From: Physcia stellaris | Lineage: Eukaryota > Ascomycota > Lecanoromycetes > Caliciales > Physciaceae | Direction: 5' to 3' | Length of the DNA: 27,333 bases | NCBI GenBank assembly: GCA_018902385.1 | Contig: JABSSW010000105.1 | Coordinates: forward strand, 1 to 27,333 | In this document: positions 2,906 to 27,333 of the stretch, in pieces | Position numbering within the stretch: the stretch's first letter is position 1 | Layout of the letters: each line of letters begins with the position of its first letter | Position numbers and translations under genes: made by a program | Notes under the pieces: model-generated | Seen by the model: the letters and a program-made list of their open reading frames with translations, nothing else | Database searches by the model: none | Told to the model about the DNA's origin: nothing

Positions 2906-3439
2906 TTGCGTCGACGTTTCGATGTCGACAATAAAAACTTGCGCATTTTCAAAACAAAAAAAAAATTTAAAAAACGATTTGAATTTGTCGAATGTTTGAT
3001 TTTATTTTCAACGTGTTTTCGACAATTCAACTAATTGATTGACGAACAATATTTGAATTTTTTGAATTTTCGTTTAAAAATCGATTTTCAAAAATGATTC
3101 GAGATTGAAATTACAATATTTATGTTAAAAATGTGAAATTTTCGAAATTTCGTTATTTGAAAAATGCAATTCAAAAAATTTGAATAAATCAAATTGTATT
3201 ATTTGCGATTTTTCACGAAACGTCGTCGATGTTCGAACGCGTTATTTTTCAATTTTGAAATCGTCAAAATTCAAACGCACAATAAAGAAAAAAATTCGCA
3301 TGTATAATGTTGATAATTTTCATGAACAATTTTCGATTCGAAATTTTCGTCGACAATTTTGTCGTTTTTTGAATTCAAATTGTGTTTGATCAATGATTTG
3401 TTTTGCGAAATTCAGAAAATTCGTGTTGATAATTTTTGA
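2906..3439 (+). pseudogene. Gag-like remnant of copy A
   Basis: The stretch starts with the same KLRRRFDVD peptide as the better-preserved gag remnant at 20872-21411 and ends with the matching words CEIQKIRVDNF. Between these it is broken by stops and frame shifts. The late part keeps the CRFLNSNC word that resembles a decayed zinc knuckle. In the Ty3/Gypsy family this would be the capsid/nucleocapsid precursor that packages element RNA. The copy is clearly non-coding now. Identification depends on the downstream copy and on the Gypsy RT remnant there, so certainty is moderate at best. Confidence 0.4.
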
Positions 3440-3599
3440 ATGAAATCAAAATAAATTGCATTTTAGCGATCAATTTTAGAAAAAACGCGAACGATTTTCA
3501 TGTTTTAATTATTTAAAACAACGTTTTCGCATTTTCGATGAATTTGAACGAAATTTGAATTGATTTCGAAATAAAATATATTTTTGTTTTTACGTCGAT

Positions 3600-3960
3600 T
3601 TCGTTGTCAAAAACATCACGTTGTTTGAAAAATTTCGTGTTTCGAACTTTTTCGAAAAACGTTTTCGACAAAATTAGCGTCGTTCGTCGAGTTCGCAACG
3701 CGAATTTATTGCAATGTTTTGTTAATTCGTGATGTCGAATTTTTGTTTCGTCGAAATGACTTTTTGCATTAACGTTTTTCGAACGAACGATGAACAAACG
3801 TTTTACAAAATTTACGTCATAAAATTATTGATTTATTTTGCTCAAGATGTCAATTTTTCGTCAACACATATTTCGCAATTTGTTTTTTTCGACGAAAAAT
3901 TCGATCGATATCGTTAATCGTCGAAATGATTTGATTTTGAAAACGTTCACAACAAATTCA
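3600..3960 (+). pseudogene. Possible retropepsin-like protease remnant (copy A)
   Basis: The plus-strand frame around 3729-3917 reads INVFRTNDEQTFYKIY, then LLIYFAQDVNFSSTHI. It sits just after the gag remnant, where the aspartic protease of a Gypsy polyprotein is expected. The spacing and pattern (a loop word before a hydrophobic strand, then a polar strand) are reminiscent of fungal Gypsy proteases. The catalytic D-S/T-G triad is not visible. The position argument is stronger than the motif argument, so this is a weak call. Confidence 0.25.
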
Positions 3961-4007
3961 ACGATGATCAATCGACATCGTTCAAATTCTAACATTCATT
4001 CTAACGG

Positions 4008-4059: not shown

Positions 4060-5810
4060 TTTTCAAAATATTAGAAGGATCTGTTGAAAGTTGAAGTCGT
4101 TCTCAATGAATATTTCTATCGAAAATTCTGAAACCAGTTTGAAATTACGTAAAAAATAAAAATAAAAGACATATGTTTTCAAATCGGGTTAGCGGCTGAT
4201 TTAATGTTTACGAATTTTCAAATTTTTTATCTCAAATTTCTAAAGTTCGAGATTTGGTTAAAATGAATCGTTTCTCGATGAATATTACATCTATCAAAAA
4301 TTTGAAACCAGTTCTGAAATCTACGTAAAAAAACAAGTTGATTTTTAAAGTGATAGGTTGGGCCAATCGGGCTATGTACATAATTTTTACGAATTTTTCA
4401 AATTGAAAATTTCGAATAAATTTGATTGAAATTGAAGCCGATTGAAATGAATATTACACGTATCAAAAATCTAAAACCAGTTCTGAAATCTGCGTAAAAA
4501 ACGTGATTGAAAAGTGATGAGGTTGGGCCGGATCGGGCACGTTCAAAATTATGTTACAAATTTTGAAAATTTTGTTAACTCGAAATTTCTTAAATTTGAG
4601 ATTTGATTGGAAATGAAGTCGTTTCTCAATGAATATTACACGTATCAAAAATCTGAAATCAATTCTAACATTAACTCTAACGGTAGTCGATATCGACTAC
4701 CAATTTTTGATGAAGAGGTTAGGGTTAACTAGATTCACTATCAACAAAAAAGTTTTGTTGATAGTGGATCGAAGTAAATCGATAAATAATGCTCGTATCA
4801 AAAATCTGAAACCAGATCTGAAATCTACGCAAAATTTCAACAAGATACACATACATTATGGCTCGACTTTTAGCGCCTGATTTTTTAAAATTTTCGAAAC
4901 TTTTTTGAAACGAAAAGTTCTAAGTCCCGAATTTTTGTTGGTAGTGAATCTAGTTTGACGTCAATATTACATGTATGAAAAATCTGAAACCAGATCTGAA
5001 ATCTACGCAAAATTTCCAACAAAATACACATATATAATGGCTCGATCGAATTAGCGCCTGATTTTTTAAAAATTTTCGAAATTTTTTGAAACGAAAATTT
5101 CTAAATCCCGAGCTTTTTGTTGATAGTGAATCTAGTTTGACGTCAATATTACATGTATGAAAAATCTGAAACCAGATCTGAAATTTAGGCAAAATTTTCA
5201 ACAAGATACACATACATGTTGTTCGATCGGGTTAGCAATTGATTTTTAAAAATTTTCGAAACTTTTTTTGAAACGAAAATTTCTAAGTCCCGAACTTTTG
5301 TTGGTAGTGAATCTAGTTTGACGTCAATATTACATGTATGAAAAATCTGAAACCAGATTGAAATCTAAGCAAAATTTCAACAAGATACACATACAATGAC
5401 TCGATCGGGTTAGCGCCTAATTTTTTAAAAATTTTCGAACGATTTTATCTCGAAAATTCGACTAAATCTCGATAAAAATTCGATACCGAATTAATTTAGT
5501 TCAACGTCAATATTTGACGTATTGAAAATGTAAAACCAGTTTTGAAATTCGCGAAAAAAACGAAAATTACACAAAAATGACTCGATTGGGCCCGATCGGG
5601 TTAGCGACTGATTTTTAGAAATTTTTGAAATTTTGTATCTCGAAAATTCGACTAAGTTTCGATAATTCATCGATACCGAAGCCGTTTCTCGATGAATATT
5701 TGACGTATTGAAAATGTAAAATCAGTTTTGAAATCTAAAAAAAATAAAAATAAAAATTGATAAGATTGAATTCGATCGATTAGCGATGATTTTTACAAAT
5801 TTTTCTCGAT
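4060..5810. repeat. Satellite array 1, about ten units of ~177 bp
   Basis: The anchor GAAACCAG or a close variant recurs at about 4130, 4304, 4473, 4655, 4808, 4986, 5169, 5349, 5532 and 5718, giving periods of 153-186 bp. Each unit typically carries GATGAATATTACACGTATC before the anchor, TGAAATCTACG after it, and later a TCGGGTTAGCG word with a telomere-like GGGTTAG. Two subfamilies are visible: early units with GGTTGGGCCGGATCGGG and later units with AGATACACATACA. Unlike most of the window, these units retain many CC, GG, CT and AG steps. The last two units are more eroded. No protein-coding potential is seen. Confidence 0.9.
4671..4728. repeat. Nested palindrome with telomere-like arms inside array 1
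   Basis: GGTAGTCGATATCGACTACC at 4682-4701 is a perfect 20-bp palindrome. It is framed by TTAACTCTAAC at 4671-4681 and GTTAGGGTTAA at 4718-4728, which are inverted repeats of each other with one mismatch. The right arm contains TTAGGGTTA, about one and a half TTAGGG units. It interrupts the satellite (the unit there is only 153 bp from anchor to anchor). It has the same layout as the 4008 border motif: CTAACG, then a palindrome, then GTTAGG. Sequence facts are certain; any link to telomeres is inference. Confidence 0.8.
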
Positions 5811-8800
5811 AAATTATAAATTATTAATAAAATCAAAAAATTCCGAATTCGTCGTTGAATCGGTTTTGAAATTTACGTTTGAAATTTGACAAATCGTAAT
5901 TTTTTCAAGATTTTGAAATTTACTCGTCGAAAACGAAATAAAATTTTTGTTTTGCGTTAAACGAAAAAGTTTCGAAAAACGAAAAATACGAAAATGAAAT
6001 TGACGAAATTACACAAAAATTTTAAAAATTCAAGAATTAAGACGCGATGAATTCGATATGATTTTCTATTTTTGAAATTTTTCGAAAATTTATCGTTTTT
6101 AAATTTTCATGATTCAAACGAAATACGATTCGAAAATAAACGAATCGAAAAAATAAATAAATAAAATAAATGTTCAAAAATTGAAAAATCAAAACGTAAA
6201 ATGATTAATCGAATTTTTTATTTTTGAATTTTTTTTTTAAACGTTTGATTGTTATCGAAAATTTGATTGTAATTTAATTTACGTAAAAAGACAATTGAAA
6301 ATTTTTTAAACGATGATTCGATCAATTTTCAAAATTTTTCTTTTTTTCAATCGATTTTTGAATTGTAAAAATTCAATAAAAATTTCAAATCAACTAAAAT
6401 CATAAATTTAACGAAACGTTAAAATCGATTTGAAATTCATAAATATAAATGACGTTTTGATTTTTAATTTTAAATTGCTGAAAAATTTGACAATAAATTC
6501 GTTTGAAATCGAAAAAAAAAATTTTTTTCAAATCTTCGCGAAGTTGAATTTTTTAAAATTTTTCAATAATTTGTTCAAAATCAAATTTATAAAAAGCTTT
6601 CGTTCAATTCAAAATTATGTTTTATAATTTGAAATCGATTTTTGAAATTTATTGAGTTTTTAAATTGTTAATTTTGTTCTTCTGATCTTTTTCTATTAAG
6701 CGAATTTTACAATTTTGTTTTCACGATTTAAATCAAAATTTTGAAAAATAAAATTCGATTCTTCGAATTGAAAATCATTTTAAACTTTGATTTTTACAAA
6801 AAATGTGAAAATTTCAAATTCATCGAATTAAATTATCGAAATGATTTATAGAAATTTTTAATTTTCGTTTCAATGAAAAATTTAAATTGATCGATTTATG
6901 ATTTTATTTTCTGTTGAGAATCAAGATTTGACGTAAAATCTACATTCGTTTGAAATCTCGTTTAGATGAGTTTGATAAAAATTCATAACGTCAAAATCAA
7001 AAATAAATCGATTTTCGATCGTTTTAATTCGAATCTTGTTTTTTGCGTTTTGATTTTCAAATTTCGAAAACAGATTTTTGAATCGTACGTCGACTTTTAT
7101 TGAGTCAATCGTCATTTTTGATGAAAATTATTTGAAATGAACTCGAAAAATGAATACAGTTTCAAATTCATTAAATGCGTTTGTTAAATTTGACGAAAAT
7201 CGAATCGAAATTTTTTATGAATTGCGAATTTCGATCAAAATTGAGATTTTCGAATGATGTTTTTTTTCACTTTAATATTTGATTTCTTAAATGATTTTCA
7301 ATCGATCGAAACGAATAAAATAAAATTGAAAATCAATACAAATCGAAATAGAACGAAATTTGAAAATTGAAAACGCGAAATTGCAAAATTTCATTAAACG
7401 ATCGATTTTTGAACGCGATTGAATTTCGTAATTTGAAAATTTAATGACTGAATCGAAATAATTTCAAATTGTTAAATTAAATCAATTCGATGTTTTTGCA
7501 TCAATTTAAGTTTTTTTGAAAATCAATTTTTTCTGAAAACCGAAATTGATTTTTAAATTGCAAAAATAAACGTGTTTGATTCGATGAAAAAATTTGCAAA
7601 CAATAAAAAATGATGAATTTTCTGAAAAACGTAAAGTGATTTTCATTAACATGCGAAATTTTTAATTCGCGATTTCATAATTAAATTTCGTCATCGTTTG
7701 AGGATTTTTCTAGAAAATTATTTTTTGATGTTAGAATACTGCAAAAATCTCTTTTTTCATTTCATTTTTCGAAAAGACTTTGATTAAATTTTTCAAACAA
7801 TATTTCAAATTTGCACGAGAAACGAAAAATTTTCGTTTTGAATTTAATTAATTTTTCGAGTTTAAATCAAAATTTGAAATGATTTAACAATTTTTTTACA
7901 ATGCTTTCAAACTTTTTGCTTTTAATCTTAAACGATTTTTTATAATAAGTCAAATTCACGACATCAAATTGATTTATAAAATCGATGAAAATCGTTAATA
8001 GACATAAAAATTCAATTTATGTTTATTCAAAATTTCGAAAATTTTGAGCCAAAACGAAATCGTTGATAAAATTTAATTTTTTTATTTTGAATTTTTAAAA
8101 TTAAAATTTTCGAATTTTGACGTTTCGAACACTCATTCAAATGTTTGAAACGTTTTTCATTGACGAAATATCGAAAATTTCGAATTTTGAAAAGCACAAA
8201 ATCTACTATAAAAATATCAGTATTTTCGCTTGACGCGAAAACGATCGATCGTATTTTTCGAAATGCGAAAATTTCGTTTTTGTTCGATTTTCGAAAAAAT
8301 TTAGTTTTTAAATTGACGAAATTGATCGAAATATGTTAAAATATTTTAAAATTTTTGCGCACAAACGTGCAAATTGATAACGTTGCAAAAAAATTTTCAA
8401 CGATGCGTATATGATTTTAACGAATTTTTGAAATTTAAAACAAAAAAATCGCATTTCAAGAAAAACGAATGTAAAAATTGAAAATATCGAATCGATTTCG
8501 TAAAACATGGAAATTTCGAATTTTTCGTTATTATAAAATCGTTTCGTTCATCAAAATATTAAAAATGCTTTTGTTTAAAATAATTTCGTTTGATTAATTT
8601 TTAAATTTTTATGATTGTTTCGTATTTTTTTTAATTAAATTCATAAACGACGCAAAATCAAATTGTAAAACAAAACGAACGCAAATAAAATCAAAAATAA
8701 AAAATCGATTCATTATCGCAATAATTTTGAATTTTGAAAAATTGCGTCGTTGTCAAATCAACGTGTCGATTCAATTTTTTCGTTTTTTTCAAAATAATAC

Positions 8801-9699
8801 GATTTTCGTTACAATTTAATGCGCAATTCGATCGATTTTCATATTTTTGATTATTTGAATAAAATTCATTTATTTCAATATAAATTTTTTATTGTAAATT
8901 TTAATTGAATGAACGCGATTACTAAAATGCGAAATTCGTGAAATCGCAAAACAATGAATCGAAAATTTCGCAATTTTATCAAATGCAATTTTAATTTGAA
9001 ATCGTTTCGAAAAAATTTTTTTAAAAAATTTCGCATTTGATTTTTAATATATATGAAATTCATTGTTTATTCGATTTATTCAATGTGAAAATCATCGTTC
9101 AAATTACAATTTTTTATTTAAAATATTCAAATTGATTTTTTAATTTTTCGATTTTAATATTGATCGAAAATCGAACGCATTTTAAATCAAAATTGAAAAT
9201 TTCAAGATTTAAAAAAATTTGAAAAATTTTAACATTCAATCGAAAAATTCGATTTAATTCAATTTCAATATTTTTCAAGTTTTGAAATCAAATTTCAAAA
9301 TTTTTCAAATCGATTTTATAAATTCAAAAATTTATCGAATTTTTTATTGAAAATTTTTAAAAAAAAATTAATGTTTAATTTTTAATAAATGATATTATTC
9401 ATCGATTTTCGAATTTTATTTTCAATTTTCGAGAATTCGATTTAAACGAAATTTTTGAATATCGAAAATTTGAAATTATTTATACAATCAATTCAATTCA
9501 ATGAAAATTCGTTTATGTAAAATTATTCAAATTAAATTAATTGATTTCGAAAATGATTTCAAATTTATTGAATTAAATATAAATTATAATCGAAACGTTT
9601 CGAATTTCATTCAAAAACGCAATTTTAAACGAAATTTTTCAAAATCAAATTTAAAAATTCGTTAAAAATCATTAAAATTGAATCAAATTTTTGTTTAAT
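5811..9699. other. Gene-free AT-rich region, possibly eroded satellite
   Basis: No gene, RNA or transposase signature was recognised in these 3.9 kb. The sequence consists of A/T runs broken by TCGA, CGAAA and ATCG words, and open frames are short. Some stretches resemble the satellite that follows. For example, the run near 6209 (AATCGAATTTTTTATTTTTG, then GTTTGATTGTTATCGAA) matches the core of the 9.7-12.1 kb units, and a similar run lies about 160 bp earlier near 6050. Part of the region may therefore be decayed copies of that repeat. This is inference from a few words, not from an alignment. Confidence 0.45.
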
Positions 9700-12140
9700 G
9701 AATATTATGTGAAATCGTGAAAAATTTTTTATCTTTAAAAATTTTAATTGTAGTTTTCAAATCATAAATCGAACGATTATTTTTGATTGTTCTATTTGCA
9801 AATTGACGCATTAAACATTTTTGTATGATCATTTACGAACGACACATTCGAAAATCATTCAAACGTCGAATCGTATTTCGTTCAATCATGAAATTCGTAA
9901 ACGACGCGATAAATTCATAAATGAAATTTCAAAAAATTCATAAATCAACGATTCATCGAGTCGATTTTTTATTTTTTGAATTTTAATTGTAATTTTCGTT
10001 TGACGTTATCGAACGCATTTTTCAAATTGTTTTATTTGCGTTGACGTCACAATGTTTGAATTGAAAATCATCGTTCAAACATCAAAATTCGTAAATGAAA
10101 TTCAAATTCATAAATCAACGATTCATCGAGTCGATTTTTTATTTTTGAATTTTAATTGTAGTTTTCGTTTGACGTTATCGAACGCACGATTCAGAAATTT
10201 TTTATTTGTGTTCGCGTTGACATGTCATGACGAACACATTCGAAAATTGAAAATCGATCGTATTTCGTTCAATCATGAAAATCGTCAAAACGACGCGATA
10301 AATTCATAAATGAAATTTCAAAAAATTCATAAATCAACGATTCATCGAGTCGATTTTTTTTTTTTGAATTTTAATTGTAGTTTTCGTTTGATGTTATCGA
10401 ACGCATTTTTCAAAAATTTTTATCTGTGTTGATTTCACATGTTTAAAATTGAAAATCATCGTTCAAACATGAAATTCATAAATGAAATTTCAAATTCATA
10501 AATCAACGATTCATCGAATCGATTTTTTATTTTTTGAATTTTAATTGTAATTTTCGTTTGACGTTATCGAACGCATATTTTGATTGTTTTATTTCACGTT
10601 GACGCATTAAGCATTAATGACATGATCATGACGAACGACACATTCGAAAATCATGTCAAACGTCGAATCGTATTTCGTTCAATCATGAAATTCGTAAACG
10701 ACGCGATCGATTCATAAATGAAATTTCAAAAAACTCATAAATCAACGATTCATCGAATCGATTTTCTATTTTTTGAATTTTAATTGTAATTCTCGTTTGA
10801 CGTTTTCGAACGCACTTTTCAGATTGTTTTATTTGTGTTGATTTCACATGCAATGAATTGAAAATCATCGTTCAAACATGAAATTCATAAATGAAATTTC
10901 AAATTCATAAATCAACGATTCATCGAGTCGATTTTTATTTTTGAATTTTAATTGTAGTTTTCGTTTGACGTTATCGAACGTTATTCAAAAATGTTCTATT
11001 CGCGTTGACGTCACATGTTTATGAATTGAAAATCATCGTTCGATTATATAAACGAATGATAAATTCATAAATCAACGATTCATCAAATCGATTTTTTACT
11101 TTTTGAATTTTAATTGTAATTTTCGTTTGACGTTATCGAACGCATTTTTTAGAAATTTTTATTCGCGTTGACGTCACATGTTTAAAATTGAAAATCATCG
11201 TTCAATCATGAAATTCATAAATGAATTTTCAAATTCATAAATCAACGATTCATCGAGTCGATTTTTATTTTTTGAATTTTAATTGTAGTTTTCGTTTGAC
11301 GTTATCGAACGCACTATTCAGAAATTTTTAATCGCGTTGACGTCACATGTTTAAAATTGAAAATCATCGTTCAGTCATGAGATTCGTAAATGAATTTTCA
11401 GATTCATAAATCAACGATTCATCGAGTCGAATTTCTATTTTTTGAATTTTAATTGTAGTTTTCGTTTGACGTTATCGAACGCATTATTTTGAAATTTCTA
11501 TTCGCGTTGATTCGTGAAAATCATCGTTCAATCATGAAATTCATAAATGAATTTTCAGATTCATAAATCAACGATTCATCGAGTCGAATTTCTATTTTCT
11601 GAATTTTAATTGTAATTTTCGTTTGACGCTATCGAATGCACTAATTCGAAATTTTTATTCGCGTTGACGTCACATGTTTAAAATTGAAAATCATCGTTCA
11701 ATCATGAAATTCATAAATGAATTTTCAAATTCATAAATCAACGATTCATCGAGTCGATTTTTTATTTTTTGAATTTTAATTGTAATTTTCGTTTGACGTT
11801 ATCGAACGCATTATTTCAATTGTTTTATTTGCGTTGACGCAATAAACATTGATAACATGATCATGACGAACAACACATTCGAAAATCATGTCAAACATCG
11901 AATCGTATTTCGTTCAATCATGAAATTCGTAAACGACGCGATAAATTCATAAATGAAATTTCAAAAAATTCATAAATCAACGTTTCATCGAATCGATTTT
12001 TTATTTTTTGAATTTTAATTTTAGTTTTCGTTCGACGTTTTCGAACGCATTTTTCAAATTGTTTTATTTGCGTTGACGCATTAAACATTGATGACATGAT
12101 CATGATTGACATCACATTGAAAAACAAATGTCAAACATCG
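9700..12140. repeat. Satellite array 2, at least twelve units in short and long forms
   Basis: ATTCATCGAG or a close variant recurs at 9951, 10121, 10340, 10509, 10748, 10918, 11078, 11248, 11417, 11574, 11744 and 11983. Spacings are 170, 219, 169, 239, 170, 160, 170, 169, 157, 170 and 239 bp. Short units are therefore about 170 bp. Long units carry an extra segment of about 50-70 bp including CATGATCATGACGAAC and CGAATCGTATTTCGTTC. Most units share GAATTTTAATTGTA, TTTCGTTTGACGTTATCGAA and GAAAATCATCGTTCA. A further degenerate long unit precedes 9951. Five units hold an intact TGACGTCA (10042, 11006, 11169, 11338, 11665). The array is AT-rich and almost lacks CC/GG. It ends just upstream of the helicase pseudogene. 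Confidence 0.92.
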
Positions 12141-12360
12141 AATCGTTGTTTTCGAATTGTTATCGCGTATTCAAACGCGACATGTTCAACGTTTTTGCAT
12201 CATTTCAATTTCATAACATCGTTTTATTCATCATCATTAATTTATTTAAACATTAGAAATTGACAAATATGATAAAAATTATCAAAATGACATTTCGTCA
12301 ATCGCGTCGCGACATCGCGTCGTTTAAATTTGCAGCGTTTTTGATATTTACGTCATTTTT

Positions 12361-12830
12361 GTTTTTCATCAACGATTGCAAACTATAAATGAACATTTGA
12401 TCGTGTTTTCGCAATGACGTGTAATCATTTGCATCAAATGCGAATATGTCGTAAAAATAAAACATGTCGTCATTCATTTCACGAATTTTTCGAAACACAA
12501 TTTGTTTCAAAATCAAATTCAATTGATTCAGAAAAACATTCGTTCGCACGAATGTAATTCGAAACATTGAAATTTTCGAATTTATTCATGATTTGAACGA
12601 ATTCATTCATGAATTGAAAATACATGATCAAATTTATTTATGTGTAATCGATTTTGTTTGCTTTTACACAACATTAATTCAAATCATTATGAGAACGCAT
12701 TGTTTCAAACATCACAAAAATCATCGAAAACGCGTCACGACAAAACAAAATTCATCGTCGTGAATTTCGATGTCACGATGTCAACAAATGTTTAAAATGA
12801 ATCATGACAACAATTATTTTCGAATGAATT
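12361..12830 (+). pseudogene. OrsD-like (DUF3505) zinc-finger N-terminal part
   Basis: Frame 1 from 12361 reads INEHLIVFSQ, a TGA at 12415, then RVIICIKCEYVV. The CIKCEYAV-type word is the usual start of the OrsD domain, which fungal TLH-like proteins carry at their N-terminus. Frame 2 then gives IYLCVIDFVCFY (Cys codons at 12641 and 12659), followed by THCFKHH (His codons at 12698, 12710 and 12713), a Cys/His finger pattern. The block closes with RCQQMFK and NNYFRM, matching the CQ-x-F ... YF end of the domain. The start codon is not identifiable; the first decoded residues lie only about 220 bp after satellite array 2. Confidence 0.75.
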
Positions 12831-13039
12831 CGATGACGACAATGTTAAACGAAACAAACGACGATACGATTTTCGTGAATGCGTTCGCAATGATCAAACA
12901 ACGAGTTCGTGTCGTTCGTGTCGTCATGAATTTTGTTTTCGTCGAACGTGTAAAAAATCGTGAAATTGAAATCGAATTCGAGTTTTGATTGAAAAAAACG
13001 AATTGACGTTTTATTTCAAAAAATTGAATCGACAAAAAT

Positions 13040-14500
13040 TGATGAATTTCGTGAAAATTTTTATCGTCGATGAAAATCGCTGATCGTCGTCGTGTGAAAA
13101 ATCGTGAAACAAATGTTGCGACAATTTCAACAAACGATCAAAATGCACGTCGAATATTATTTGTGCGTGAAAACGATTCGCAACGAAATTCATTAAATCA
13201 AATATAAATCGTTGTTGACGTACATGATCGATCACGTTTTCAAAAATTACGCACGTTCGTGAAAACAAATCGTCGTCTTTTTCGTTCGCATTCAAATTTA
13301 TCAAAAAATCAAAAAATCAAAAATGTCAATTTACGAATTCGACGAAATCGAACAACGTTGTTTCGACGTCATGATGCAACACGCGCAACAAACACGCAAT
13401 CGCGATTTTTGATCGAGAAAAATTTCATCAATCGTTTGTTCAATTTTTTCAACGAAACGATCGATCAAAACAGCAATCACGAATTCGTTCGTGACAAAAC
13501 ATCATGAATTTCGTTGATTGAATTAAAATTGACGTGTTTGCGATTTTGTTTTGCGTTGTTTCAACGTCGTGTTCGTCACGAAAAATACGAATTGTTCATG
13601 TTATGCGTCATGATCGTTTTGATCGTCAAATCGCAAAATGACGCATTTCACATGAATATTCGTTCATCATGTTTCACGTCATCAAAATGATTCGTTTCAT
13701 GATCATTCAAACAATTTTCAAAATTGTTATAACATTCGTGATTTCATCACGAAAAAACGTCGAATTTGATAAATTACGATATTGTATTAATTAACGATTG
13801 CATAATTCGAAACAATCACGACACGATGCAATGAATATTCGATCGTCGTGCGTACGACATGAAAATTTATTATATTTTCACGTCGTCAAATTTCGTGAAT
13901 TGAATAAAAAATCAAATTCGATACAAATAAATCGAATTTCACATAAACGATTTGCGCAAAATAATACGCGATTTGATTAATTAAACGTATAAAATTTTGA
14001 AATTCGTGATGCATTGCAAACAAATCGATTTTTTTGTCATTTCATGATTGACATTACGAAACGATTTCACGCGAAAAAACATTGAACATAATTTCGTTCA
14101 CGACAAACGCAACTCGTGATCGATCGACGAAAACGCGTGATTGATAAAACGTTTGTTCGAAAAACGAATTCTCGTCGAACGAAACGACATGTACGATTCA
14201 CGCAAATGTCACGAATGATTTCGTTTGATCGATCGATTTCACGATTTGTTGATCATTTTGATACAATAAATTTGAAAACAAAACGCGCGCGATTTCGAAT
14301 TTTTGAACATGTGTGAATGAAATTTCGATTTCGAAACAAAACATAATTTGTTCATCGTCGACGAATACAATTTCGACGAAATCGAAAATGTTCAAATGAA
14401 ATTGATTATTCGATATCACAAAAATTACAACATCGATCGCAATTTCAAAGTGATTTATCGTTATTTGTCGCGCGAGATGAACGCGTTGTTGATTTGAATC
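13040..14500 (+). pseudogene. Conserved middle region of the TLH-like pseudogene
   Basis: No named domain is assigned here, but several words match the linker I remember from TLH-like proteins. Frame 3 gives SLLTYMIDHVFKNYAR and later FDVMMQHAQQ. Frame 2 gives CLRFCFALF near 13535, then MQ-stop-IFDRRAYDMKIYY at 13826-13873 and NFVN-stop-IKNQIRYK near 13889-13923. From 14396 it reads IIRYHKNYNIDRNFKVIYRY followed by LSREMNALLI. The two stops at 13832 and 13901 stand where the family has Trp. The function of this region is not known to me. Confidence 0.7.
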
Positions 14501-14821
14501 GTTTAATTGATTCGTTCGACGTGAAACACGATTCAATTTGTTTTCAAAAACAAGAAATTTGTTCGAAAATGAAAAATCTGACATGTCGATGTCAATGATC
14601 AAAAGTGAAATTCGATTCGTATCAATCGAAAAATGCAACAAATCAACGAGAAAACGTGCGAACAAAAATTGACGATTGTATTTTGACGAAATATTAACAT
14701 CGTCATTAGTCGCAAATATTTGCGCAAAAAAACAAATCATCATCATCAACAAAACGAAAAAAATTGAAATGACGAAAATGAAAAAAACGAAATGAAAAAT
14801 TTGCAAACGAATCACGATTTT

Positions 14822-15700
14822 CACGTTGTCGAAAACGTGTACGCGCGAAACATTCGCGAAACATTCGAAATCGTGAACAACACGCGACAAAAATATCGCT
14901 TCGTCAACGAAAATTGACATCGCATGTTGAATTTCGAAATGTTTGAAATCAATTCGATCGTTTCGAACAAACGCAAACACGTCGAAAACGAATCACACGA
15001 CGTGATCGCGAACGTGTTCAAACGATTTCGACAATCGTTTTCGTTGAATTTGAACGAACAATTGCGCACGTTGATGCGAAATTTCGATGTCACGTTTCGA
15101 TTTTTTCAACGAAACGCGTTTCACGTCATCATTTACGTCAAAAAATTCGTGTTGATTATCATGTTCATCGAAATTGAAAAAATTTGTTGTTTATGTTATC
15201 GACGTTTTGCAATTTCGACGAAATCATCATTGTAAATTTCGCGACGTGCGTTTGTGAACGAAAAACTAATCAAAACACAAATGATCGTTTTTCTGATCGC
15301 ATTGCGACAGAATTTGCGACGAAAATGTCAACACGTCGACATTCGTTGTCGCGAATGAAATTTTCGCAATTCGTCAAACGATGTTCAATTGATGTTGATC
15401 ACATTCGAATTCGTTTTAAACGATGTTTTCGTTTGTTTTTTCATTCGCATTCGAAATCAAAAACGATTAAATCGCATTGTTATCGACGAATGTTACGTTG
15501 TGTTAAACGACAATTTTCAATTTCGATTTCGTTTGCAAAAATTGAAAAAACTTTGTCGATTCGAAATTTTAATAATGATATTGATCGTCATTTTGTCGTT
15601 TCAAAAAAACTCGATTTCGAAAAAAAATGTGCATGACAACGTCAAAATTCAATTTTTTCGAAACGTCATCACGCGAATTAACATTTGTTATTGTACGTGA
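14822..15700 (+). pseudogene. RecA-like lobe 1 of the RecQ-type helicase (motifs I-III)
   Basis: Frame 2 reads VENVYARNIRE and YRFVNEN, a TGA at 14915 in place of the family Trp, then HRML. Next comes FSLNLNEQLRTLMRNF, which precedes the nucleotide-binding site. Walker A at 15161-15184 has decayed to MFIEIEK: the Lys survives but the glycines have become Glu (GGA to GAA), and the frame slips. Frame 1 gives LLFMLSTFCN, then frame 2 resumes with IALRQNLRRKCQ. The DECH box at 15485-15496 is now DECY inside RIVIDECYVVLND. Motif III at 15584-15592 is IVI where TAT is expected. The lobe could not bind ATP as it stands. Confidence 0.88.
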
Positions 15701-15702
15701 CG

Positions 15703-16047
15703 TGCGCGATTTTGATCATTTGCGAATCAAAAAAACGAATTGTTGATTATAATTGAACGTTGTCGTTTCGAATTAAAATCGAACGAAAAATGTTGATGTA
15801 TTGCAATTGAATCGCGAACTGTCAATTTTGAACGATTTTCATCAAATGTGACGCGTATTTCGACGAAATCGAAAACAAAAATTGCGTTTTGTAACGTTTC
15901 GTCATTCAATCGCAATTCAATATTCTCGTGACGATCAACGCGTTTGACATGAAAATCGACATGTCGCATTTGCGATACGTTATTCATTTGAACACGTTTC
16001 GATTTTTGCTGAAATACGATCAAAAAAACGAACGAAGCGAAACGAAA
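15703..16047 (+). pseudogene. RecA-like lobe 2 of the RecQ-type helicase (motifs IV-VI)
   Basis: After a one-base frame change the frame-1 translation reads MLMYCN, KCDAYFDEIENK and RFVIQSQFNILVTINAFDMK. It then gives IDMSHLRYVIHLNTFRFLL, the motif V region (family: ATNALGMGIDIP). Motif VI, the arginine-finger box, is at 16021-16041 as QKNERSE where QESGRAG is usual; the Gln and one Arg survive. Stops at 15718-15720 and 16048 interrupt or end the frame. The order and spacing relative to lobe 1 are those expected for SF2 RecQ helicases. Confidence 0.85.
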
Positions 16048-16138
16048 TGATCGACTCAATGAAACGATCATGATTTTGAATCGAATTTCGTCGCGAAAAA
16101 TCGCGTTCGACGTCATGAAATCGCATTTGCGAATTTGA

Positions 16139-16255
16139 ATGCAGTCGTCTCGACAGCGAGTCTGCAAACGAGTCATTTTAAATCGCTATTTCGACGATCG
16201 CGACAATCGTTTAAAATGCGAAACGAACGAGAAGTTTTGCGAAATTTGTCAATTT
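16139..16255 (+). pseudogene. RecQ zinc-cluster block
   Basis: Frame 2 resumes and reads RVCKRVILNRYFDDRDN, then LKCETNEKFCEICQ. The Cys codons lie at 16163, 16217, 16238 and 16247. The pattern CKR-x2-L-x2-Y-x-D ... C ... C-x2-C is the zinc-binding segment that follows the helicase lobes in the RecQ family (CRR-x2-L-x2-YF-x-E in typical members). All four metal ligands survive although the rest is heavily mutated. It follows lobe 2 by about 90 bp. Confidence 0.8.
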
Positions 16256-16597
16256 TTCATTCGTTTCGTCAATCAAATTCATGTTTTGACGTGACAAAAT
16301 CAATTCATCGATTTCGATCAATTTTTTTTCACGACGTCGTCAATTTCGTTCGTTTCGTTCGTTTTCATCGCGAGAAATGCGATTTTTAATCTCGTCGTCG
16401 CGCGTCAAATTGTTGTTTTTTTTTCAATTTTCACGTCATTTATTTCGAGCAACAACATTTCATTCACGACGAAATTTTTCATTTTTTTTTTTGTTGTTTT
16501 CGTCGTCGCGATTTCGTCGTTTTTCGTTTCGTTCATCGTCGTTCACGTTTTTCAATTCGATTTTCAATTTATCAATCGTTCGATCGTCGAACGTTAT

Positions 16598-17070
16598 GAA
16601 CAACAACAACGCGATATTCAAAAACGTTTTCGTCAATTGCGCGCGATTTTCGAACAAATTCGAAAAAAATGCGCGTATTGTTATTTCACGAATCAAAAAC
16701 GAAAACATTACATGTATCATTGTTTTCACGAAACGTTTGCGTTTTTTCACGACGCGATTATGTAAATCAAAAAGCGATTGCGAAAACAAAAAAAATTGAT
16801 CAATTACGACGAATGCATGAAATGTTATTTGTCGCAACTATGATGCAATGAATATGTGAAATTTCACAAAATCGACAATTTTCGACGTTTGAAAAAATAA
16901 AATGCGACATCAAAAACGTGATGATGAAAATGTTGATCGTGTTGATGCATTTGCATTCGATTTTTCGAAAACAAATGCAAAAACGTTTGTTTGCGCACAT
17001 CGTTTGACTCGACGTGATCAAATATTGAAAACAAAAAATGAAAATGAAAAACGTGAAAATGTATCGCATG
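16598..17070 (+). pseudogene. Cys-rich C-terminal part of the TLH-like pseudogene
   Basis: Frame 2 reads LRAIFEQIRKKCAYCYFTNQ, then KHYMYHCFHE, FFHDAIM, a stop, IKKRLRKQKK and CMKCYLSQL. A TGA at 16841 follows where Trp is usual, then CNEYVKFH. The CxxC ... HxxxxC ... CxxC spacing suggests a second zinc-binding module at the end of these helicases. Past 16915 the match moves to frame 1 (CDIKNVMMKMLIVLM) and then fades, so the true 3' end is uncertain, somewhere between 17.0 and 17.3 kb. The 350 bp before this block (16256-16597) are open in frame 2 but I recognise nothing in them. Confidence 0.7.
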
Positions 17071-17079
17071 ATCGTGAAA

Positions 17080-17908
17080 TTGATCGAAAAATTGCAATTG
17101 CATTCGTTTTCGTGAACGCGTACATTTTAATCGATTTTTTCGACGTTTTGCTCGTCAATCAATTTGACATTCATTTCGAGACGACGAATTTCAAAAACGA
17201 AAAGAATGAATGAATATTCGAATGCAACGTTTTCACGATCGAGACGCAAAAACGACGAAAATTGATTGATTTTTTCGATTGATTGATGAGCGAAATAAAA
17301 ATCAAAAAAACGCTTTGTTGCATGACGAGAAATTAAAAAACAAAAATCACGTCAACGATCGAACTTTTTCAGCATCAACGATGCACGAATCTTGTCATTT
17401 TCATTTGTTGTCGTCATTTCAATTCGTTTCGTTGAAATTTTCGTTTGCGATTTGAACGTTATTGATCATTAATGTCATTTTTCATTTTCATTTCATTCGT
17501 TGTTTCATTTTATCAATCGTTTTCATCTCATCAGTCGTTTTCACTTCATCGTTTTTCATTTTTCATTTTGATTTCGTACATGTGTTCACGCTTTTGTGTT
17601 TCGTTCGTTAATTGCAAAATTCATTCGTCGTGTGAATACGATTTTCGTTGATTTGTAAAGTTCACGACGCGACAATCGCGTCAATTTTCATTTGAAATGA
17701 ATCGTTTTTTCGAATTCGATTTCACGCAAATTTTTTGAAACGCATTCATGATTTCAAAATTCATTTTCGTTGATATGCGCATATGAATAGCGGATTCGAG
17801 TTAGAGTTACGAGACGAACAGACGAAAAACTTAAAAATTTTCAACTCGATTTGCTTGTTTTGAATCAATCAAATCGTTAGTTTCAGTCACTCGTTTTGAT
17901 CGACGTCA
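17080..17908. other. Spacer between helicase pseudogene and retrotransposon copy A'
   Basis: No gene is seen. From 17461 to about 17600 the top strand is dominated by TTTCATTT, TCATTTC and TTCATC words, so it is strongly pyrimidine-biased. It may be a mutated pyrimidine microsatellite. From about 17785 to 17905 the sequence keeps AG and GG steps (AGCGGATTCGAGTTAGAG, ACGAGACGAACAGACG) and so looks less mutated than its neighbours. The repeat copy begins at 17909. Confidence 0.5.
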
Positions 17909-18902
17909 AAATAAAATCAATCAAATCGATTGTTTAAATCATTCGTCTGAACGATTTCTCATCAAAATTTGAAATAACAAATGATAAACATGTGAAATCT
18001 GATATCTGTAACGCTCGATGAGAAAAATTCAATGTTGCAAAAATGAAAATGATGTGACAAATGAATGAATTGCTATTCAATTGCGAAAATTCAATTTCAT
18101 ACAAATTCATGACAATTCGATTTTTCAATTTGCGTTCATTCAAAATTTTCAACTCAACAATCATGATGTCATTTCATGATACATTTGCATATGATATTTA
18201 ATGATAACATGATATGTGTAACGTTCGATGAAAAAAATTCAATTTCGCAAAAATGAAAATGATGTGACAATTGCGTAAAAAGTGATTCAATTGCGAAATT
18301 TTGAATTCATACAAATTTTTGAACATTTAGCAACAAAAATTGCGCGTTTGTTTTTAATCGAATTTACAATTCAACGATCATCATTCAAAAATGTAAATTA
18401 TCATCGAAAATTCGTTGTTTGACGTTCTGAACGAGCGCAATTCAACGTCGTAAAAATCAAATTCGTGTGATCAATGTGTGAATAATCAATGCGATGTGAA
18501 ATTTTGATTTCATACAAAATAACGATAGTCGATTTTTTCAATTTGTTCGCGACAACATATCGTTCAACAATCATTTCAAATGAAATAATCAAATAATCGT
18601 TATCGAAATTCTTTTGTAACATTCGAAAAAAAATTTCAACGTCGTCGACACGAAGTTGATTTAACGACTATGTGCAAAGTCATTCAATTGCGAAAGTTTC
18701 ACATCATTCAAAAATATGATCGTTCAACAACAAAATTTGCGATCAATCAAATCACGTCTAAAAGTCATTCGTTTTGATTCGATCGTTTCGTTTTACTTTA
18801 TCGAGCATTAACGTCGAGTGTTTTATTTCATTTTTAAATCATTTGTTTTTTGCAATGCACATCAGACGATTCAAATTGTCAACAATCGCATTCGTTTTCA
18901 AT

Positions 18903-19096
18903 CTCGTCGAGCAACGAATTCGAAACAATGAAATGAAAATATAATTTGCAAACAACATGAATTTAATCATGATGTTTTCAAAATATTAAAATCATGTTGT
19001 TTGCAAATTACATTTTTCATTCATTGTTTTGAAATCATGTTGTTTGCAAATTATATTTTCATTTCATTGTTTCGAATTCGTTGTTCGACATCGAGT
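18903..19096. repeat. Long inverted repeat (foldback) inside copy A'
   Basis: The left arm 18913-18960 and the right arm 19036-19083 are perfect reverse complements over 48 bp, and the match continues outward with a 3-bp gap (CTCG...TCGAGCAACG against CTCGATGTCGAACAACG). The loop contains an extra direct copy of the right arm: 18990-19033 and 19034-19077 are near-identical 43-44-bp repeats starting ATCATGTTGTTTGCAAATTA. The foldback is much cleaner than its surroundings. The matching place in copy A (about 1040-1130) has only weakly similar words. It could be a MITE-like insertion or a local inverted duplication. Confidence 0.85.
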
Positions 19097-20610
19097 CAAT
19101 TGCAACAATTCGTTTCGATCATTGCGCACGATGAAATTTGTTGCGATTAATGCGCAATGTAATCAATATTCATTTTGCAACAATCAACGCGATCAGACAT
19201 TTTTCATTAATCGAAAATCAAAATTTTTTCGCATTAACGTTTGTAATATTTTTCAAACATCAAGCGAATTTCATTTTTTTTATCAATCATTTTTTTGATT
19301 TGTTTTTTTTTTCAAATATTTGTTGTTTTTTTTTGACAAATATTTTGTTTGCGAACAACACGATCAATTCTTTGCTCATTTGTCATTTGTTTACAGTGAA
19401 ATTTGTCGCATTGTTGTGACAATGAATCGTTCAATCAAATACAATACAATGAAAAAAAAAACAACGAGAAAAATTGACATTCAAAAATATAAAGCAAAAA
19501 GAAAACGAACATCGATATCAATGAATCAATGAACGAATTCAGTACAAATACATTAGTTTTTTTCATCAAACACAACTTTTTTGAAATCATAAAATTCACG
19601 TTTTTGTCATTCTGTTGAAATTCATCAAAATCGACATTTTTATTTACGTCACGAATTTTCAGAAAATTGCTTTTTTTCATGTGAAACGACGACATGAATC
19701 ACATTTATTGACGACGATTGTGTCATCGACAATATTTCAAAAATTCGAATTTGCAACACGTTCAACATCGTCGCAATTTCGTTTTTTTTCAAACGTATGT
19801 AGAAAATTCAAAAATCGTTTCGTTTTCGATTCAAATTTTATCGTTGACGTTTTTTAAAAAATTTAAAACGAACAAATCATTTTTCATCATTATTAATAAC
19901 AGACAGCATGATGTCGAAAGCAATTTCGTTTTCAAAAATTTTTTTGATTTTCGAGATTGTATTAACATTGCAAATAAAAACATTATAGCATTCTCATTGA
20001 AAACGATGTTTTTTCATGTTTCAAATGTTAACATATCGACAATCAATTTTTCAAAAACGTCGACAATGATCGATGCGTTTATTTTCGTCGAAATCGCGTT
20101 TTCATTCAACGTTGCGATTTCGCAACGAATTTTTTCGTTATTTTGTCGTCAAAGTGCGTCGACGCAATTGTTGATGTCGTTTTCTCGCGTCAAAAATCAA
20201 TTTTTTTTATCGTCATCGTCATTTACAGCTTGTTCGCGATTCGAGTCATTGACGATGCAAAATTTATCGATACAATTTTCAAAACAATCAGAAAAATTTT
20301 CATTTTCGTTCATTTACATCGATTTCGATTTTTTTTCGAATTTTTAAATTTTTTTTAATTTTTCGAACGAGTCGAAAGCAAACGCAAAATCAAATCGTTT
20401 TGATTATTTCAACAATGACGTGCAAAAAAACAATAACAATCATTTGTCAAATGACAATTTTATTGTCAATCAATCAACAACAAACATTTTGCATGAAATT
20501 TCGCGATTTATTTGCGTTTGTGATGAATTTATTCACGATCGTCGTGCAAATCAAAACAGTCGTTAATGAAATCGTTCAAATAACATCATTTCAAAAAAAA
20601 ACATCATTTC

Positions 20611-20633
20611 AAAAAAAAAAAAAAAAAAAAAAA
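20611..20633 (+). repeat. 23-base A run with duplicated flank
   Basis: The run follows a duplicated CATCATTTCAAAAAAAAA segment (the first copy ends at about 20601). It is absent from the corresponding place in copy A near 2600. It looks like a replication-slippage expansion within the element and not a transcript tail, because gag-like sequence follows it in the same orientation. Confidence 0.7.
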
Positions 20634-20871
20634 TGTTTTCGCAATCATGATGAATTTTGCGCAATATTGACGTATGATGCAAAACAATCGTTCAAAATCA
20701 TTTTTCAACATTGATGTTTTTTTACATTTTTCGACAATGTTACAACGCGACGACTCGTTTCAAAATTACAAAAACATAAATTGAAACAATTTATTTAACG
20801 ATCAATTTTTTTTGTATCGTTTCGATATCGTCGTTTTCGAAATTCTTTTCGAACAAACACAAATCAATTTT

Positions 20872-21411
20872 TATTGAAAATTGCGTCGACGTTTCGATGT
20901 CGACGATTTCGTTGCGCATTTCAAAACGTTAAAAAATTTGAAAAACGATTTGAATTTGTCGTATGTTTCATTTTATTTTCAACGTGTGATGAACGATTCA
21001 AAAATGCTCATCGACGAACACAAATCGCATGAAATTATGAATTTTCGTTTAAAAATCGATTTCAATGATCGAAATTGAAATTACAATATTCACGTTTTCT
21101 TTTTTCACATGAAATTTTCGAAATTTCGTCATTTGAAAAATGCAACGCAAAAAATTTGAATAAATCAAATTGTATTATTTGCGATTCGCGCAAACGTGTC
21201 GATCAATGTTCGAACGTGTCATTTTTTCAATTTTGAAATCGTCAAAGTTCAGACGCACAATAAAGAAAAAAATTCACATGTACGATGTCGATCATTTCAT
21301 GAACAATTTTCGACTCGTTTCAGTCGACAATTTTGTCGTTTTTTGAATTCAAATTGTCATTTTGATCAACGAATTTGCGAAATTCAGAAAATTCGTGTTG
21401 ATGATTTTTGA
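20872..21411 (+). pseudogene. Gag-like remnant of copy A'
   Basis: Frame 1 reads Y, a TGA at 20875 (probably a former Trp), then KLRRRFDVDDFVAHFKTLKN, SYVSFYFQRVMND, KMLIDEHKSHEIMNFRLKI and DFNDRN. This pattern resembles the end of a Gypsy gag domain (W-x2-L-x4-F ... Y-x2-GL-x-D ... A-I-x-I-D-N-R). After two more TGAs it gives HNKEKNSHVRCRSFHEQFST, then RQFCRFLNSNCHFDQRICEI. The last looks like a zinc knuckle that has lost its second Cys. It ends with KIRVDDF and a stop. In an intact element this protein would form the particle and bind RNA. Confidence 0.5.
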
Positions 21412-21599
21412 TTGAAATCAAAAATTGCATTTTCAGCGATCAATTTTAGAAAAAACGCGAACGATTTTCATCATTCATTTGAAACAACGTTTTCGCATTT
21501 TCGACGAATTCATGAACGAAATTTGAATTGATTTCGAAATAAAATATATTTTTTGTTTGCATTATGTCGATTTCGCTGTCAAAAACATCACGTTGTTGT

Positions 21600-21960
21600 G
21601 AAAAACATCGTGTTTCGAACATTGAAAAACGTTTTTTCACGACAAAATTAGCGTCGTTCGTCGAGTTCGCAACGCGACGTATTCATTTTTGTTGATTCGT
21701 GACGTCGAATTTTGTTTCGTCGAAATGACATTCATTAACGTTTTTCGAACGAACGATGAACAAACGTTTCACAAAATTTATGTCATGATTCGAAATTATT
21801 GATTTATTTTCGTTCGAAATGTCAAATTTTTCGTCAACACATATTTCGAGAATTTGTCGTTTAGCGACGAAAAATTCGATCGATGACACATCGTTAATCG
21901 TCGAAATGATTTGATTTTTGAAAACGTGCACAACAAATTCAACGATGATCAATCGACATC
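21600..21960 (+). pseudogene. Possible protease remnant of copy A'
   Basis: This lies between gag and RT and is homologous to 3600-3960. Frames read TTKLASFVEFATRRIHF, LTFFERTMNKRFTKFM and FSFEMSNFSSTHISR, with shifts between them. Position and length suit the aspartic protease of a Gypsy polyprotein, but the active-site triad cannot be seen, so this is a placement-based call. Confidence 0.25.
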
Positions 21961-22257
21961 GTTCAAATTCAAAATTCATCAATTCAAAACGTGACGAACA
22001 ATCAAACATCGTATCGACATTTCATTGATTGACGCGTACAATTTTTCTCATACGACGTCAATCGAAATCATCAATGATTTACGCAAAAAATATCGTTTAC
22101 GTTTGTCAATTTTTCAAGAATTGAAATCGATGCACAGTTTCGTCGAAATTGATTTTTGATCATCATGAATTATCAACGATTCGAAAATTCGAACGTCACA
22201 TTTCTTTGTTTGTGAATTCTTTTTCGCAAATTTTTTCGTCATCGTTCATATTGAATT

Positions 22258-26067: not shown

Positions 26068-26640
26068 ATCTAACATTCATTTTAACGAGTTGAAAAGTGA
26101 TGCATCACTTCAATCGATTTGATGAATGAGATTAGAGTTATTTAGTTTCGAAACTTTCAATCACTAGAGAATCTGTTGAAAGTGAAGTCGTTTCTCGATG
26201 AATATTGCATTTATCGAAATTTTGAAATCAATTTTGAAATTTACGTAAATAACGAAGTTAAAAAGACATGAAGTTCGTCCGGATCGGGTTAACGGCTAAT
26301 TTGTTACGAATTTTTCAAATTTTGTTCACTCGAAATTTCTCGAAATCTCGAAATTTGATTGAAAATGAAGTCGTTTCTCGATGAATATTACACGTATCAA
26401 AACTTTGAAACCAGTTCTGAAATCTACGTAAAAAATCGAATTGAAAAATGATGAGGTTGAGCCGAATCGGGTTAGCGTCTGATTTTTTACGAATTTTTGA
26501 AATTTTTGACTCGAAATTTCTCGAAGTCTCGACTTTTCGTTGAAAGTGAAAACTTTTCTCGATGAATAATACACGTATTCGAAATTTGAAATCAATTTTG
26601 AAATTTACGTGAAAAATGCAATTAAAAAGTGTTCAAATTG
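26068..26640. repeat. Satellite array 3, about three units of the array-1 family
   Basis: It opens with TCTAACATTCATTTTAACGA and the palindrome AAGTGATGCATCACTT at 26095-26110, as at 3989-4023. The unit anchors (GAAATCA, GAAACCAG, GAAATCA) are at 26224, 26407 and 26588, giving periods of 183 and 181 bp. The words TCGTTTCTCGATGAATATT, TCTACGTAAAAAATCG and AATCGGGTTAGCGTCTGATT are shared with array 1. The orientation is the same as array 1. The last unit fades into ordinary AT-rich DNA. Confidence 0.9.
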
Positions 26641-27019
26641 AAATTAATTAAATAAACGATTAATTTTATACGAATTTTTGAAATTTTCGTCGAAAAAATA
26701 ATTCGAATATCGAATTTTCTTGCGTACAATCGATTTGAAAATTGACGTAAAATTTGACAATTTTATAAAAAAAAAACGTTATTGAAATTGCTATTAAAAT
26801 TGATATATAAATTGTAAATGAAAAAAAATTAACATGTTATCATTGTATATTAAAAATAAATTAATAATTTAAATCAATATAATTCGAATTTCAAACTTAC
26901 ATTGTATTTCGAAAAATTATTGAATTTTATGATCACAAATTCTCAAAATAATTTTCTTGTTCGTTCGAAGATGAAATAAATTTCTATAACAATTAAAATT
27001 TTATAATTTTTAATACAAA
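26641..27019. other. AT-rich flank with changed composition
   Basis: After about 26640 the CG-containing words that dominate the block become much rarer and TA, ATA and TTAA steps become common (for example ATTAATAATTTAAATCAATA near 26864). No gene was recognised. This may be the edge of the hypermutated block. Confidence 0.5.
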
Positions 27020-27271
27020 TTATTGATCATTTACATTAGATCGTTTGTATTCACGAATGATAATTTTATTCAATCGTTTTTCATCGTTTTCGTCGTCATA
27101 AACAATATTTATCCAAAAATAATTTTCGATATTTTGTTTTGATTTAAGCAAATAAATCAAAAATTCGTCATTGATTATAAAATTTGAATCAATAAAATCA
27201 ACAAAATATGTTTCGAAATCGTCAATTGTTGTAAAGTAATTGTTAGAATTTTCGTGTACAAAAATCGACAT
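27020..27271 (-). CDS. Small hypothetical protein, 83 residues
   Basis: This minus-strand frame starts with ATG at 27271 and ends with TAA at 27020. The product is acidic and rich in Asn, Asp, Ile, Phe and Tyr, with segments FETYFVDFIDSNFIINDEFL and NYFWINIVYDDENDEKRLNK. No signal peptide, membrane segment or known motif was recognised. It lies where composition has changed from the hypermutated block, contains a TGG Trp codon, and its balanced polar and hydrophobic spacing looks more protein-like than frames elsewhere. It could be one exon of a larger gene or a chance frame in AT-rich DNA; introns were not resolved. Confidence 0.35.
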   Translation of the reverse strand: MSIFVHENSNNYFTTIDDFETYFVDFIDSNFIINDEFLIYLLKSKQNIENYFWINIVYDDENDEKRLNKIIIREYKRSNVNDQ

Positions 27272-27333
27272 ATTTATGCTGAATAATAAATATATTCGTT
27301 GTATGATGAATTGTGATTGAAAAAATGATTTGA

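Follow-up and report, generated by a model that had tools for sequence, protein, structure and literature searches.

OrsD is the protein domain that was formerly called DUF3505. In Colletotrichum higginsianum, telomere-linked helicase (TLH) elements with a helicase and DUF3505 are located at chromosome ends, as stated in the available part of that report (PMC5576322), and excerpts of two further reports state that Ustilago UTASb carries OrsD (PMC10532341) and describe the TLHs of Fusarium (PMC12857005). Here we analyze a stretch of 27,333 bases from Physcia stellaris (the window), which constitutes the entire contig JABSSW010000105.1 (C105; other contigs are named in the same way) of a 43.97 Mb assembly of 147 contigs that was searched as a whole. 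The window very probably contains a full-length plus-strand pseudogene of a TLH-like (OrsD-RecQ) gene, which was inactivated by insertions and deletions and by C-to-T changes on both strands directed at cytosines followed by a pyrimidine (CpY).

The second described system to which the locus can be compared is repeat-induced point mutation (RIP). In the available parts of the respective sources, a comparison covering 1,239 fungal genomes reports that RIP-like defenses share a preference for CpA (PMC12543289), and the damaged ribosomal DNA (rDNA) of other ascomycetes is described as carrying mainly CpA changes, those at CpT being more frequent in N. crassa (PMC5555474). Excerpts of other reports record a CpT signature alongside CpA in Botrytis, Sclerotinia and Magnaporthe (PMC4352252) and in Neurospora Tad1 (PMC2621366), and a dominance of CpT to TpT in the control repeats of RIP-capable fungi (PMC7882544). 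Neither PMC4352252 nor PMC7882544 mentions CpC in its main text. Our literature search, with most subscription journals outside its coverage, returned neither a CpC-led, CpA-sparing form of RIP nor a living gene exhausted by RIP.

The relic was identified by frameshift-tolerant protein-to-DNA alignment, with the intact OrsD-RecQ protein (1,687 residues) of an open reading frame (ORF) on C67 as the query. The plus strand of window positions 12000–17600 scored 445.5, compared to 161.5 for the minus strand, 106.5–179.5 for eight other pieces of the window, 158 for the reversed protein, and a mean of 172.3 for 30 dinucleotide-preserving shuffles (standard deviation 18.5, maximum 203). The same query scored 477 on a copy on C10 and 363.5 on a copy on C41. 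The collinear path joins residues 15–1677 of the C67 protein to window positions 12376–17368, with 1,577 aligned residues, 399 of them identical (25%) and 342 similar. This confirms the full-length plus-strand RecQ/TLH relic that an earlier note had read from the letters of the window. The chain of collinear matches over more than 1,000 residues, which that note had named as the support to look for in a frameshift-tolerant search, was obtained, and the six blocks follow each other in the order that it had given: OrsD, middle region, lobe 1 with DECY, lobe 2, Cys cluster, and Cys-containing tail. The extent that it had proposed (12361–17070) stops a little early on the 3′ side. The parts of the relic are as follows.

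12376–17368, plus strand: OrsD-RecQ (TLH-like) relic, family B, defined by its alignment score to the C67 protein against nulls of at most 203.
12400–12718, plus strand: remnant of the OrsD domain (PF12013), with 315 of 319 bases identical to C10:61120–61437.
15155–15190, plus strand: presumed remnant of helicase motif I (P-loop), peptides IIMFIEIEK and KNLLFML in two frames.
15485–15496, plus strand: helicase motif II, DECY, where the C67 protein has DEAH.
15930–16045 (about), plus strand: remnant of lobe 2 on the fitted path, comprising what we take to be motifs V–VI, INAFDMKIDMSHLRYVIHL...DQKNERSE.
16163–16249, plus strand: remnant of the RecQ-type four-cysteine (zinc) cluster, aligned to C67 CLRRVLDNYF...CSHNQNFCYLC.

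The relic thus has an OrsD domain on the N-terminal side and both RecQ core lobes in collinear order. Its OrsD remnant contains one extra base relative to the C10 copy and is out of frame past that base. In a genome-wide OrsD search the C10 copy scored 29.9 bits (cut-off 26.6) with one internal stop, and 23.0 bits, below the cut-off, when its whole X-masked frame was scanned; the C41 relic scored 48.8 bits for OrsD and had a DEAD match below the cut-off (0.0054). The assignment of 15155–15190 to motif I is presumed from the RecQ consensus. The P-loop glycine is gone from the assigned peptides, and the fitted path, which runs in another frame there, is also glycine-free. In the zinc cluster, four cysteines are in position on the alignment, and no match to a profile hidden Markov model was obtained. 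Membership in the RecQ/TLH family, which the earlier note had taken from consensus, is supported by the near-identity of the OrsD piece and by the Pfam and structure matches of the C67 protein (OrsD 2.6e-10, Helicase_C 4.2e-14; among solved structures the RecQ family, with Bloom syndrome protein as the best match at 6.6e-16 and RecQ1 and WRN also among the top ones).

A six-frame X-masked Pfam scan of 12320–17290 returned no OrsD and no helicase match, and its lone listing at E values up to 1 was a minus-strand OppC_N at 0.16, below the cut-off; the relic is therefore too broken for ordinary search. The same negative result would be expected if the alignment reflected only composition, with AT-rich DNA resembling any protein rich in Asn, Lys and Ile, and the behavior of tblastn points in that direction as well: without composition correction the C67 protein gave one long match to the window (E 1.8e-12, 20% identity). 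Since an out-of-register match of this protein to its own locus reached E 4e-17, the tblastn E-values were set aside in favor of the controlled alignment. Such an artifact is refuted by the alignment controls, all of which lie far below the relic, and the nearly identical C10 copy of the OrsD piece exceeds the OrsD cut-off; we give this explanation practically no credence. Two properties of the fit do limit its weight. The path needs 25 frameshifts at positions chosen by the optimizer, and the stop codons counted in all three plus frames are mostly TGA as well (162 TGA, 50 TAA and 1 TAG). The path itself crosses 37 TGA and 8 TAA in frame, and this excess of TGA was dropped as independent proof, the three-frame ratio being nearly equal.

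The damage to the relic has an unusual context. Positions 12301–17300 contain no CC and no GG dinucleotide, and the observed-to-expected (o/e) ratios of the others are 0.08 for CpT, 0.10 for ApG, 0.25 for TpA, 1.18 for CpA, 1.54 for TpC and 3.4 for CpG. A CpY index, calculated as (CC+GG+CT+AG)/(TC+GA+TT+AA), is 0.022 for the relic. At ten loci elsewhere, which comprise eight helicase genes, one DIM-2-like gene and the end of C77, it is 0.77–1.13; these spared-gene controls are sampled loci, irrespective of copy number. The CC/GG o/e at the eight helicase loci is 0.84–1.10. For the two RIP indices in common use, the relic has values of 0.24 and 1.16 and the C67 gene 0.58 and 0.95. By the thresholds quoted in the available part of PMC3164635, both relic values are RIP-negative, and the second C67 value (0.95) is RIP-positive.

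The direction of change was polarized with a damaged rDNA copy on C41, which was compared with the conserved (upper-case) columns of the Rfam consensus for 5.8S and for positions 1 to about 418 of the large subunit. C had changed to T at 20/25 CpC, 15/32 CpT, 2/28 CpG and 0/35 CpA sites, and 157 of the 160 A/U columns were unchanged. This heavily mutated copy (C41:45899–46052) was the sole 5.8S match in the assembly, and no working array was found by that search.

Further evidence comes from the other members of family B. The relic stretch 14000–15500 has copies on C10 (97%), C57 (96%), C12 (94%) and C41 (68%), and two more close copies are present on C4, where the copy is cut by the contig end, and on C6, where the part matching about 13355–17780 is missing; the family thus has six or more closely similar members (C105, C10, C57, C12, C4 and C6) besides the distant C41 copy. 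Cytosines of the window that are lost in the C10 copy amount to 24/38 at CpT, 23/425 at CpA and 6/684 at CpG; the corresponding values are 32/37, 43/424 and 11/684 for C57 and 26/36, 10/425 and 13/684 for C12. Among columns in which one of four B copies differs from the other three, 105 show T>C before T, which we read as CpT retained in one copy. The per-context losses in the rDNA relic and the B copies show that the 3′ pyrimidine decides the target and that CpA follows after CpY is exhausted. The C-to-T damage claimed in the earlier note is real, and its CpY context had gone unseen there, as had the living and dead relatives in the same genome.

Of the alternative explanations of the damage, conventional RIP aimed at CpA and acting on a TLH gene as in Leptosphaeria, with the odd dinucleotides as a secondary effect, would account for C-to-T changes on both strands, for DNA-methylase loci resembling RID and DIM-2, and for recent CpA changes among the B copies. 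However, CpA is not depleted and TpA not enriched in the relic (see the o/e values above), and the CpA sites of the rDNA relic are all unchanged, which makes this explanation very improbable. Ultraviolet damage and deaminases of the APOBEC/AID type are steered mainly by the 5′ neighbor. Dipyrimidine damage or such a deaminase would be in line with CpC as the strongest target, but here it is the 3′ neighbor that decides, as in known RIP, TpC is enriched, and sampled ordinary genes are spared; we regard this as equally improbable. An artifact of sequencing or assembly, such as base-conversion chemistry or collapsed homopolymers, to which some frame-changing gaps discussed below could be ascribed, is hardly credible, since the loss of CC and GG leaves AA and TT in place, and the CC/GG o/e values at eight ordinary loci elsewhere in this assembly are 0.84–1.10.

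Selection on the relic was assessed from C-to-T differences between the window and each copy in 11 of 26 fitted blocks, with context rates allowed for. The observed numbers of synonymous, nonsynonymous and stop changes were 23/23/7 for C10 (26.6/23.2/3.2 expected), 39/43/4 for C57 (42.1/38.0/5.9 expected) and 25/23/1 for C12 (25.1/21.7/2.2 expected). The variable columns of the B copies (111/59/137 at codon positions 1, 2 and 3) had resembled the outcome of selection, and this effect was gone once context rates were included. In line with these neutral substitution classes and the glycine-free P-loop, the B relic is a neutral pseudogene, and its stops and frameshifts likewise differ from what a working gene would contain.

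The intact relative on C67 belongs to a second family, A. Its ORF spans 1,763 codons, with 1,687 residues counted from the methionine of MSFYD, and contains one of the 25 matches of the genome-wide OrsD search. The ORF contains 17 CC/GG sites in 5,061 bases, and 12 of them are its seven Gly and five Pro codons (a simple binomial gives a chance of 0.0019 for at least 12 of 17 sites in that codon phase). Gly makes up 0.41% and Pro 0.30% of the protein, and Trp is absent, whereas the mean shares in ordinary ORFs of this genome are 8.1% for Gly, 5.4% for Pro and 0.93% for Trp (6,109 codons in nine ORFs of at least 300 codons, out of 11 loci tried). Ten of these 12 Gly/Pro sites persist in all three A copies compared (C10, C62 and C53), but only one of the five remaining CC/GG sites does. 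In a structure-match alignment, three of the Gly/Pro sites lie in helicase motifs: G937 before the lysine of what we take to be motif I, P959 in presumed motif Ia and G1205 in presumed motif VI. C-to-T differences between the A copies and C67 are 62/32/1, 51/33/1 and 61/49/2 (synonymous/replacement/stop), with a neutral expectation of about 28/62/10%, and the replacement-to-synonymous ratios are 0.24, 0.30 and 0.37 of neutral. On these counts, family A shows saturation by the same process together with the pattern of purifying selection. The fitted A copies are free of stop codons. Reassignment of TGA can be dismissed as an explanation, as the open A ORF has no in-frame TGA. Single CpY changes in the C67 ORF can create no stop, compared to 108 possible stops through CpA and 45 through CpG; in the nine ordinary ORFs, 57 potential stops arise through CpY and 289 through CpA.

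These features can be combined in a mechanism in which repeated DNA undergoes saturating C-to-T change on both strands at CpC > CpT >> CpA and CpG. The process would be a CpY-directed variant of RIP, with a RID-class enzyme of CpY specificity marking or converting cytosines in duplicated DNA. In coding sequence the changes turn Gly into Glu or Asp, Pro into Ser, Leu or Phe, and TGG into TGA; the latter is the sole one-step CpY route to a stop, and proteins would be harmed chiefly by the loss of their Gly, Pro and Trp residues. Any gene that can dispense with these residues would become immune and could stay multi-copy. Family A fits this description, and family B, with the relic, would be a sister family that failed to adapt. 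Three DNA-methylase loci are present in the genome, two presumably RID/Masc1-like and one presumably DIM-2-like (classes assigned by sequence motifs), and we infer that one or both RID-like enzymes drive a RIP-type, premeiotic, methyltransferase-linked process. Among solved structures, the uL3 protein of this genome is matched best by PDB entry 7r81, from Neurospora crassa, which makes a placement in Pezizomycotina probable. Taken together, we tentatively propose, with somewhat less than even confidence, CpY-directed RIP with TLH family A immune by substrate exhaustion: the family would have lost all Trp and ∼95% of its Gly and Pro relative to ordinary ORFs, and its remaining GG/CC sites would map the indispensable residues (the motif I glycine, the motif Ia proline and the motif VI glycine).

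Several observations weigh against a CpY-directed, RIP-type process. CpA is not immune, as the columns in which one of four B copies carries C>T include 100 before A, 21 before G, 13 before T and 8 before C. Cytosines of the distant C41 copy (about 68% identical) that read as T in the window are 97/168 CpT, 87/454 CpA and 105/448 CpG, and in the A copies the context rates are also closer to each other (CpT 0.12–0.15, CpA 0.06–0.08 and CpG 0.05–0.06). Two reverse-transcriptase loci with stops have CpY indices of 0.10 and 0.26, but four loci without stops have 0.89–1.04, so some mobile DNA has escaped. One of the RID-like matches holds two in-frame TGA codons, which may represent an intron or damage. 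Only C67 among the four A copies examined has an open frame; those on C10, C62 and C53 are frame-broken in the assembly. Homopolymer errors were considered as the cause of these breaks and rejected upon a recount, in which by our reading only 7 of the 25 frame-changing gaps fall in homopolymers (2/11 in C10, 3/5 in C62 and 2/9 in C53). Some of the breaks may thus be real, and the recount lowered the likelihood that we assign to substrate exhaustion.

Among reverse-transcriptase matches in general, the 150 scored of 527 candidates contained 250 TGA, 33 TAA and 3 TAG. Ten of the 150 were stop-free, and 112 of the 140 stop-bearing matches had TGA stops only, which fits CpY damage, although composition also favors TGA.

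The earlier note had taken the relic as a hint of a subtelomeric position. The family does gather near contig ends. Position was counted for 20 OrsD matches with a locus, excluding the five weakest (C12:52425 and C13:39951, both near the contig start, C41:129341, away from it, and one each on C25 and C49). The distance to a contig end is at most 15 kb for ten of the 20 loci and at most 75 kb for 18, as raw counts with no chance expectation computed; the exceptions are on C5 and C6, and 17 of the 20 are oriented towards the nearest end. The B copy at C6:433473 lies deep inside a contig of 1 Mb, so such units also occur away from contig ends. Among the contigs with OrsD matches, a telomere array is present only on C34, where it occupies the start, and C41 begins with one CCCTAA. 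The window contains no run of three TTAGGG and no telomere array; its links to ends are a satellite shared with the start of C10, a stretch resembling near-telomere sequence of C34, and, at its right end, a stretch that precedes an A gene elsewhere. A chromosome-end position is supported for the family, and a subtelomeric origin of the window contig is likely on these sequence links. Against this, contig ends collect repeats through assembly, which makes proximity to them weak evidence for a subtelomere. By analogy with what has been proposed for other TLHs, the family may have a role in chromosome-end maintenance. The remaining features of the window are as follows.

4084–5805, no strand: satellite with units of ∼182 bp, also found at 26175–26695 and at the start of C10.
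8660–8968, no strand: stretch 69% similar to C34:771–1100 (low-complexity filter off), which lies within about 1.1 kb of the telomere array.
9724–12146, no strand: tandem array with periods of 157–409 bp, upstream of the relic and common to B copies.
17908–21979, no strand: segment duplicated from window 1–3999, 84% and 79.5% identical in its two parts.
26176–27333, plus strand: stretch 83% identical to C10:527–1787, upstream of the family A TLH gene on C10.

The array and the relic are flanked by the two copies of the ∼4 kb direct duplication. The satellite stretch at 4–6 kb retains much CC/GG, in contrast to most of the window. The contig stops before any family A gene at its right end, where a small minus-strand ORF (27020–27331) with no Pfam match has a conserved counterpart upstream of the A-type TLH on C10 (1468–1788 of the locus). 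This small ORF is oriented divergently to the helicase and contains one Trp. Pfam searches with ten other ORFs of the window gave three matches, all below the cut-off (E 0.09–0.12).

A process that acts on CpC and CpT and spares CpA would go unnoticed by the standard indices, and its existence would mean that target contexts are able to shift. Provided that it is expressed, family A would represent a multi-copy gene which outlived genome defense by purging the attacked codons, and it makes testable which residues of a RecQ-like helicase are indispensable. In comparison with the TLH families of Magnaporthe, Fusarium, Ustilago (UTASa/UTASb) and Colletotrichum higginsianum, the families described here likewise combine a RecQ helicase with OrsD, are multi-copy, and lie near contig ends mostly in one orientation; unlike the known TLHs, they are CpY-saturated, and the open A copy is nearly devoid of Gly, Pro and Trp. 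The damage resembles CpA-type RIP in its C-to-T changes on both strands, mutated repeats, spared sampled genes, 3′-neighbor context, and accompanying loci presumed to be RID-like and DIM-2-like, and differs from it in that CpC and CpT are targeted, CpA of the rDNA relic is unchanged, and the classical indices of the relic are negative. With the CpT-biased signatures, as far as the available parts of those reports describe them, it shares the targeting of CpT in a probable member of Pezizomycotina with presumed RID-class enzymes.

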